NCBI GenBank assembly: GCA_017624835.1
Contig: JAGAMG010000049.1
Span: 1-37,167, forward strand
DNA: 37,167 nucleotides
Origin: Lachnospiraceae bacterium
GTDB taxonomy: Bacteria > Bacillota > Clostridia > Lachnospirales > Lachnospiraceae
Direction: 5' to 3'
Shown here: positions 2 through 1,424 of the stretch, one piece after another
Numbering within the stretch: position 1 is the first letter of the stretch
How the letters are laid out: each line of letters opens with the position of its first letter
The notes under the pieces: model-generated
Database searches by the model: none
What the model saw: only the letters and a program-made list of their open reading frames with translations
What the model was told of the DNA's origin: nothing
Position numbers and translations under genes: made by a program

Positions 2-853
2 ACTCACGGCGATGACTACGGTATCGCTTGCTGCGTATCTTCCATGGTTATCGGTAAGGAAATGCAGTTCTTCGGCGCACGTGCTAACCTGGCTAAGTGC
101 TTACTGTACGCATTAAACGGTGGTATCGACGAAGTTACCAAGAAGCAGGTAGGTCCTAAGTATCGTCCTGTTGAAGGTGACGTTCTTGATTACGATGATG
201 TATACGCTAAGTTCATGGATATGATGGAGTGGCAGTGTGATGTTTATGTAAATACTCTGAACATCATCCACTACATGCATGACAAGTACTGCTATGAGAG
301 AGCAGAGATGGCTCTTCATGACAGAGATGTTAAGAGATACTTCGCAACCGGTGTTGCAGGTCTTTCCATCGTAGCTGACTCCCTGTCCGCTATCAAGTAT
401 GCTAAGGTTGAAGTTATCCGTGATGAAGACGGCGTTATCGTTGACTTCAAGACCACCGGTGACTTCCCTAAATACGGTAACGATGATGACCGCGTAGACG
501 AAATCGCTCAGGATATCGTTCACAAGTTCATGACCGCTATCAGAAGACATCACACCTACAGAAATGGTGTTCCTACCACTTCCATCCTGACCATTACCTC
601 TAACGTTACCTATGGTAAGGCTACCGGTAATACCCCTGATGGACGTAAGAAGGGACAGCCTTTCGCTCCCGGTGCTAACCCTATGCACGGACGTGATACC
701 CACGGTGCAGTAGCATCCCTTGCTTCTGTATCCAAGCTTCCTTTCAAGGATGCTCAGGATGGTATTTCCAATACCTTCACCATTATTCCTGGTGCACTTG
801 GAAAAGAAGATCAGGTATTCGCAGGCGATATTGAATTAGACCTGAACAAATAA
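2..853 (+). CDS. pflB: Pyruvate formate-lyase (formate C-acetyltransferase) core subunit, 5' end outside window, lacking the glycyl-radical domain
   Basis: Cleaves pyruvate plus CoA to acetyl-CoA and formate in anaerobic fermentation. The frame is open from the window edge (codon phase starts at base 2), so only the C-terminal 283 residues are visible. The catalytic cysteine pair is seen in [12 protein letters not shown], followed by the PFL blocks [24 protein letters not shown], [20 protein letters not shown], TGNTPDGR and [10 protein letters not shown]. The protein stops shortly after GALGKEDQV. In E. coli PflB the chain continues here for about 60 residues carrying the RVSGYAV glycyl-radical loop. 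That domain is instead encoded at 1182-1424. There is no sign of a nonsense mutation: the stop sits at the domain boundary and the next genes have good ribosome sites. Codon use looks like that of a highly expressed gene. The family call is certain; the split is seen directly. Confidence 0.95.
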
Positions 854-880
854 TTGATTTTTCATTAGAAAGGACACTCT

Positions 881-1084
881 ATGGACGATAAAGCAATGAT
901 TGATGACCTTGTAAAAATGTTGGATTCCGGCATTGCAAATGGCGTAGGTCACATAAATGTAGACTTCGACGAAGCAAGTAAACAGTCAAAGAACGTTCAG
1001 ACAATGGGCTGCACGGATTGTTCCAGAACACCGTTGGCCTGCAGTGTACCCACTCTTGAGCAGGGATTGGATGATTACCAATAA
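881..1084 (+). CDS. Small Cys-rich protein related to the N-terminal half of the glycyl-radical domain
   Basis: This 67-aa ORF has a ribosome site AGAAAGGA at 867-874, 6 nt before the ATG, and starts 27 nt after the PFL core stop. Residues 8-29 (IDDLVKMLDSG...GHINVDF) align by eye with residues 9-30 of the downstream glycyl-radical protein (NNLVSLLDG...HHLNVNV). After that it diverges. It has no RVSGYAV loop and therefore no radical glycine. Instead it carries Cys44, Cys47 and Cys54 in MGCTDCSRTPLAC and ends LEQGLDDYQ. It is therefore a paralogue of the docking part of the domain with a CxxC-x6-C tail. Function unknown. A role as a placeholder, redox or metal-sensing partner of the PFL core is inference. 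Confidence 0.75.
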   Translation: MDDKAMIDDLVKMLDSGIANGVGHINVDFDEASKQSKNVQTMGCTDCSRTPLACSVPTLEQGLDDYQ

Positions 1085-1124
1085 TTGGTTGTAGCATTCC
1101 CGTTCCAACTCTTATAAAATAATA

Positions 1125-1151
1125 TCGGGAAGATAATTTATATCTTCCCGA
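1125..1151 (+). promoter_or_regulatory. Intergenic stem-loop without U-tract, between the Cys-rich ORF and the glycyl-radical gene
   Basis: A perfect 11-bp stem (TCGGGAAGATA 1125-1135 with TATCTTCCCGA 1141-1151) closes a 5-nt loop ATTTA. It is followed by GTTAATC rather than a T-run, so it is a poor terminator. It lies 17 nt before the AGGAGGA ribosome site of the next gene. It could be an mRNA processing or 5'-stabilising hairpin that raises the level of the small radical subunit over the core. That role is inference. Confidence 0.6.
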
Positions 1152-1181
1152 GTTAATCAAAAATAATAGGAGGATTAAACA

Positions 1182-1424
1182 ATGGCAGCAAATACAGCAC
1201 AGGTTAATAACCTTGTATCTTTATTAGATGGTTATGTAACAAAAGGCGGACATCATTTGAATGTTAACGTATTAAACAGAGACACCTTATTAGATGCTCA
1301 GGCTCATCCTGAGAACTATCCTCAGCTTACTATCCGTGTATCCGGATACGCTGTTAACTTCATCAAGTTAACTCCTGAACAGCAGGCTGATGTTATCTCT
1401 CGTACTTTCCATGAAAGTGTTTAA
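1182..1424 (+). CDS. grcA: Stand-alone glycyl-radical domain protein (GrcA/YfiD-like), radical subunit of split PFL
   Basis: An 80-aa protein with strong AGGAGGA at 1168-1174. It matches the extreme C-terminus of Pfl[38 protein letters not shown] and a [17 protein letters not shown] end. The radical glycine is Gly55 in RVSGYAV, the site where the PFL-activating enzyme removes a hydrogen. E. coli GrcA (YfiD, 127 aa) is an autonomous version that rescues oxygen-cleaved PFL. Here the upstream core has no domain of its own, so this protein is probably an obligate subunit rather than a spare part. It sits between the core and pflA in the same direction. The domain assignment is certain; the obligate-subunit role is inferred from the missing domain. 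Confidence 0.93.

Follow-up and report, generated by a model that had tools for sequence, protein, structure and literature searches.

The window, i.e., the whole 37,167-nt stretch of DNA analysed, begins with the genes of a pyruvate formate-lyase (PFL) that is naturally split at the boundary of its glycyl-radical domain (GRD). A core that ends before the GRD is followed by a small gene coupling a GRD-like half to a cysteine tail, then by a free-standing GRD and the gene for a PFL-activating enzyme (Table 1). Across relatives the split is far beyond chance. On balance we lean slightly towards a working separate-chain PFL, in which the cysteine element most likely aids the loading and activation of a GRD supplied in trans. 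As for the broader picture, we regard it as an even call that many Clostridia make a three-part PFL, with a detachable radical subunit and a GRD-derived cysteine protein that is needed when the GRD is separate, switches between a gene of its own and a core tail, is lost when the GRD is re-fused, and acts as a dedicated loading or guarding factor.

Table 1. Features at the start of the window, with positions, strand, and basis of assignment
Feature	Position	Strand	Basis and remarks
PFL core without GRD, C-terminal 283 codons	2..853	+	TIGR01255 match; open 5' end, runs off the contig
Middle gene, 67 aa: GRD-like N-half (DDLVKMLDSG..GVGHINV) and Cys tail (GCTDCSRTPLACSVPTLEQGLDDYQ)	881..1084	+	Profile comparison, dN/dS
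Inverted repeat between middle gene and GRD	1125..1151	.	Terminator-like on the - strand; consensus match only
Stand-alone glycyl-radical domain, 80 aa, probably GrcA3-type, RVSGYAV	1182..1424	+	NF038360 (just under the cut-off) and TIGR01255 matches
Terminator-like hairpin, 15 pairs, 3' of the GRD gene	1438..1472	+	Consensus match only
pflA, radical-SAM PFL-activating enzyme, 250 aa	1541..2293	+	TIGR02493, 294 bits (cut-off 231.75)

The first base of the window is the edge of its contig (C44) in a source genome of 2.93 Mb and 55 contigs that is 84.8% complete. The first-pass annotation had reported a PFL core here, which holds for the last ~40% of that core only; contig C20 carries at its edge an N-terminal part of 391 aa that ends in SSIQYEND. 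According to a comparison with one unbroken homologue, about 5 codons are missing between the two parts, and we infer that C20 and C44 adjoin, with one core gene across the junction. The catalytic Cys-Cys pair is found in the core piece as ACCVSSM (codons 29–34). Along the 744 positions of TIGR01255, the core piece tiles to 395–665 and the 80-aa GRD ORF to 664–743 (411–681 and 682–758, respectively, in the numbering of E. coli PFL). Thus, the core chain ends at model position 665 of 744 and the glycyl-radical loop is encoded by a gene of its own. This tiling, together with the same arrangement in most relatives, bears out the earlier claim of a natural split at the GRD boundary. The claim that the core keeps Cys-Cys and stops at that boundary also stands, but the stop does not come right after GALGKEDQV, since the core continues for 11 residues further. 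The 328-bp distance to the RVSGYAV gene was given correctly; the gap had been taken as empty, however, and it holds the conserved middle gene.

A second full-length pflB, for which a search had been proposed, was not found in the 84.8% complete source assembly, nor was any other second class-I PFL. The one other glycyl-radical enzyme found there (L004 on contig C18, 841 aa, full-length) belongs to the PFL2-3 subfamily: it scores over the cut-off of TIGR01774, and TIGR01255 is absent from its matches. It has an activase gene of its own adjoining. Given that the core has no GRD, that no intact class-I PFL was found, and that most relatives look alike, separate chains must come together to form the enzyme. 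The first-pass annotation had said as much for two chains; it overlooked the third gene, which nearly always accompanies the split state.

As for the stand-alone GRD, its radical residue, Gly55, is encoded by codon 1344–1346. It reaches 157.8 bits (156.7 in a second search) against NF038360 (GrcA3), whose curated cut-off of 158 is passed by 24 of 61 genomes in the search that included genus genomes. Like GrcA/YfiD, it is a free-standing domain with an RVSGYA loop. It matches YfiD residues 67–126, however, with nothing corresponding to residues 1–66, and accordingly lacks the N-terminal region of ~60 residues that marks TIGR04365 (GrcA/YfiD), against which it scores 99.4 bits at a cut-off of 170. 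Directly past pflA, at window positions 2381–2608, lies a small ORF resembling a two-cluster ferredoxin.

The middle gene is preceded by a ribosome-binding-like AGAAAGGA. Over the first ~30 residues, its product shares homology with the beginning of the GRD (profile comparison: 96.3% probability, E 1.7e-9, 31 columns), and the cysteine tail stands where the GRD has its radical loop. Thus, the glycyl loop RV[SA]GY that characterizes PF01228 is missing from the middle protein, the loop half having been replaced. An alignment of 29 middle proteins shows no exception to the second cysteine of the pair or to the Pro three residues after it; at least 90% of the proteins also keep the first cysteine. 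The median dN/dS is 0.084 (199 usable of 300 genus pairs), i.e., the gene is under purifying selection. No family model of Pfam or NCBIfam is matched at its cut-off. In Pfam, the window's protein matches no family, and the 29 proteins yield weak matches only (PF01228 in 2 of them, best E 0.0088). Matches in NCBIfam are likewise weak and mainly link the N-half to GrcA3 (NF038360 in 20 of 29, E up to 0.1, best 4e-6).

Within the genus, a stand-alone GRD occurs in 32 of 37 genomes by manual count (own genome included, G004 by partial match). Four genomes, with completeness of 63–87%, have neither a stand-alone GRD nor an intact PFL, and the one-contig genome G006 carries no PFL other than an intact one from a distant lineage (L146, active site ICCCVSA). 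Regarding the order, a manual count of matches listed down to about E 1e-37 gives at least 73 of 294 drawn genomes, own included. The order sample contains nine same-genus genomes that are 99–100% complete, and all nine have only stand-alone GRDs at E <= 1e-25. Named genomes hold at least 584 GRD relatives, the best 80 of which were kept; by record titles, these 80 come from Lachnospiraceae, Oscillospiraceae, and Erysipelotrichaceae.

The best 30 matches each from the genus and order searches and the best 80 from named genomes provided 139 GRD-query loci (L007–L145). The GRD ORF is shorter than 200 aa in all 139, and a GRD-less core lies just upstream in 133. The remaining 6 comprise L013, L028, and L111, with <400 bases of upstream sequence, and L106, L139, and L142, with ~5 kb. 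Full-length split cores number 66, many others ending with the fetched stretch, and Cys-Cys is present in 66 of 66.

After removal of two duplicates from the 133, there are 131 unique split loci. The cysteine element is a separate gene in 89 of them, part of the core as a fused tail in 39, and missing from 3 (L053, L081, and L092), and the two forms never occur together; in L053 (1279–1446), a stop falls inside the Cys motif of the middle ORF. Cys pairs persist in the fused tails, even where the motif has shrunk to CACCEP or GCC; four of these tails (L068, L078, L133, and L137) have a close Cys pair and no Pro. The tails are without the GRD-like half, so their equivalence to the middle gene rests on the Cys motif and on mutual exclusion. 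The regular-expression detector is of moderate specificity, firing in 33 of 1780 shuffles, 13 of 89 reverse strands, and 27 of 85 downstream stretches; being insufficiently specific by itself, it leaves the claim of a cysteine element to be carried by the profile search and the alignments.

According to that profile search, the cysteine element co-occurs with the two-chain state. The full middle profile (E <= 2.9e-11) is found in 54 of 294 order genomes, all among the 73 with a stand-alone GRD, and in none of the 221 others; weaker matches cover the N-half and mostly fall on GRDs and PFLs. The 54 include G271, the genome of L053, where the match runs across one stop. Of the 19 GRD genomes outside the 54, 17 have cores with a Cys tail. 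The other two are G243, whose core was not seen, and G195 (L174), the clearest exception: its split core has one lone Cys but no Cys motif, and a middle gene was not found. Three related genomes have the middle gene away from the core–pflA–GRD cluster (L177, L179, and L181 vs L178, L180, and L182): ~370 kb away in G284 and on another contig in G328 and G305. Their cores are without a Cys pair, having a single Cys after ALGK in G284 and none in G328 and G305. Because the middle gene is unlinked in these three, operon hitch-hiking does not explain the co-occurrence. The gene adjoining the unlinked middle gene is one that we take to encode a YitT-like membrane protein. Chance as the origin of the middle ORF is ruled out by conservation, dN/dS, and profile co-occurrence.

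In a tree of the core segment (144 rows), split rows cluster with SH-aLRT 92, below the 95 mark. Nested among them are three intact PFLs (L147, L149, and L150) and L148, a natural single chain that runs from core through a Cys stretch to GRD. The three intact PFLs have no Cys motif, and no full middle match was found in their genomes. Re-fusion of the GRD with loss of the motif is favoured as the better fit to the tree, short of proof; L148, which appears re-fused, retains cysteines, and this counts against equating re-fusion with motif loss. Forcing the split rows into one clade costs 24.5 log units with an AU p of 0.085, in a test on 70 rows (including a random draw of 50 cis/trans rows) whose group was named after the tree was seen. 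Switches between a separate and a fused Cys element number at least 3 by strongly supported branches and 12 by parsimony.

The preferred reading is thus a working class-I PFL whose chains are encoded separately: a core without GRD, a GrcA3-type radical subunit, and a small cysteine element, which would be the middle protein here and the core-fused tail in other lineages. Judging from the families involved, the split PFL would assemble, be activated, and convert pyruvate to formate and acetyl-CoA. The GRD would dock in trans on the core; PflA would place the radical on Gly55 of the GRD, from where it would move to the Cys-Cys pair of the core. The cysteine element would most likely serve as the recognition and docking part through which a GRD supplied as a separate chain is loaded and activated. 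This last role is suggested more tentatively, by analogy with the biochemistry of E. coli YfiD: according to PMC8683613, E. coli PFL requires its residues 696–733 to bind YfiD and to be activated efficiently. The split core reaches only the equivalent of E. coli residue 681, and the window GRD is without a counterpart to the first 66 residues of YfiD. For a permanently GRD-less core, the cysteine element could therefore stand in for the stump (696–733) of oxygen-cleaved E. coli PFL.

A different role for the same protein would be that of a placeholder: the middle protein or the Cys tail would fill the empty GRD socket of the core and shield or cap the active-site cysteines while the GRD is at PflA or lost to oxygen. 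The middle protein does retain the helix/strand half of the GRD with the radical loop swapped for a Cys tail, and the cysteine element accompanies the two-chain state only. The fused tails, however, are without that GRD-like half, and nothing in the core + middle model puts the middle protein in the socket. The two AlphaFold models, with a mean pLDDT of 65.1 and 63.6, are weak, and each gives the middle protein low confidence; in the core + middle model, superposition on E. coli PFL ends at residue 666 (2pfl) to 678 (1cm5), and the middle protein begins at 687. We consider this role unlikely, at perhaps one chance in a few.

Rather less likely is a redox or metal switch, in which the two conserved cysteines, as metal ligands or as a disulfide, would control GRD release or turnover under oxygen. 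The conservation pattern of the 29 middle proteins, with a Cys and a Pro present without exception and a second Cys in at least 90%, agrees with such a function, as do the Cys pairs kept in the 39 tails. Metal-linked families also appear among the weak matches (CobW-related, E 0.0039; IscA/HesB, E 0.02). These matches, however, come from one member of the 29 each, with none at its cut-off, and the number and spacing of the cysteines are highly variable.

Regarding the GRD itself, in E. coli such a domain is a spare part for an intact PFL, and by that model an intact PFL would be encoded elsewhere and the split core would be a relic. Seven isolates from among the best 80 matches (Lachnoclostridium phytofermentans, Lacrimispora amygdalina, Eisenbergiella tayi, Claveliimonas bilis, Blautia sp. 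An81, Beduini massiliensis, and Ruminococcus sp. YE71) bear on this directly. Claveliimonas bilis, where a split PFL coexists with an intact one, offers some support; in the other six of the seven, however, the split enzyme is the sole TIGR01255 match over the curated cut-off, and a relic would not be expected to keep Cys-Cys in every full-length split core. A relic core is therefore very improbable. Replacement of a part within the split enzyme is another matter: that the radical subunit is swapped after oxygen damage while the core need not be remade is plausible. Second GRD genes without a nearby core were seen in three genus mates (L183, L184, and L185), next to genes that are presumably spoIIIAA/spoIIIAB, and these orphans are possibly true spare parts for the split PFL. 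Such extra core-less GRD genes, in the three genus mates and in L106, L139, and L142, fit the idea of part replacement rather than demonstrate it.

The least probable explanation, with next to no weight left, is that a frameshift, contig break, or pseudogene split an ordinary pflB: a contig edge does cut the core of this incomplete assembly, and single decayed or misassembled copies exist (the parsed core ORF of L090 is only 68 aa), but the 131 unique loci span many species and at least three families by titles, the Cys-Cys pair is intact throughout the full-length cores, one-contig genomes (e.g., G057 and L008) show the same architecture, and the middle gene is under purifying selection. Relatives with the same architecture thus rule out a frameshift, an assembly artefact, and a strain-specific stop. 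The comparison across relatives that had been proposed did not turn up the opposing case, i.e., intact relatives with this strain alone broken.

In comparison with known systems, the locus shares with E. coli PflB (TIGR01255) the core sequence, the Cys-Cys pair, the RVSGYA loop, and a neighbouring PflA-type activase. PflB is a single chain, however, whereas here the core and GRD genes are separate and a Cys element is added. YfiD/GrcA (TIGR04365) is likewise a free-standing GRD able to complete a PFL core, but it serves an oxygen-cleaved intact PFL and has an N-terminal region of ~60 aa; the window's GRD starts at the GRD itself and is the only class-I PFL radical domain found. It is probably of the NF038360 GrcA3 type, a family whose cut-off many relatives pass and that names the small GRD only. 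Cys-containing partners that influence the radical domain are known from other glycyl-radical enzymes, namely, the small subunits of 4-hydroxyphenylacetate decarboxylase and benzylsuccinate synthase. Those subunits, however, carry Fe-S cluster motifs and are not known to derive from a GRD, and in the enzymes they belong to, the GRD remains part of the large chain.

In gut and rumen anaerobes, PFL is one of the main ways of turning pyruvate into formate and acetyl-CoA, and oxygen destroys its glycyl radical. If many Clostridia use a replaceable radical subunit, repair by part exchange would be a normal design and not an emergency measure. It would also provide a natural system with a protein radical on a separate subunit, where loading, transfer, and loss could each be followed on individual components; the middle protein lends itself to direct tests.

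As for novelty, a split PFL is not reported in the titles and abstract openings found by a search whose range ended short of preprints and most subscription journals, and the passages of PMC9403272 on the subject make no mention of one. The Cys element has no name found in Pfam or NCBIfam. The split itself is probably familiar to some workers, since the GRD is named GrcA3 in NCBIfam and two PFL chains without a GRD match are in PDB. From these two entries, 38lb and 38la ('Formate acetyltransferase'), it seems that cores of this kind have been studied by another group; the entries are not listed among PDB entries up to April 2026, and a GRD search of PDB matched no GRD chain of either. The chain of 38lb extends ~43 residues past the core. 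When the core tree was repeated with three long intact rows left out, 38lb, a long branch, was placed within the split clade and 38la just outside it.
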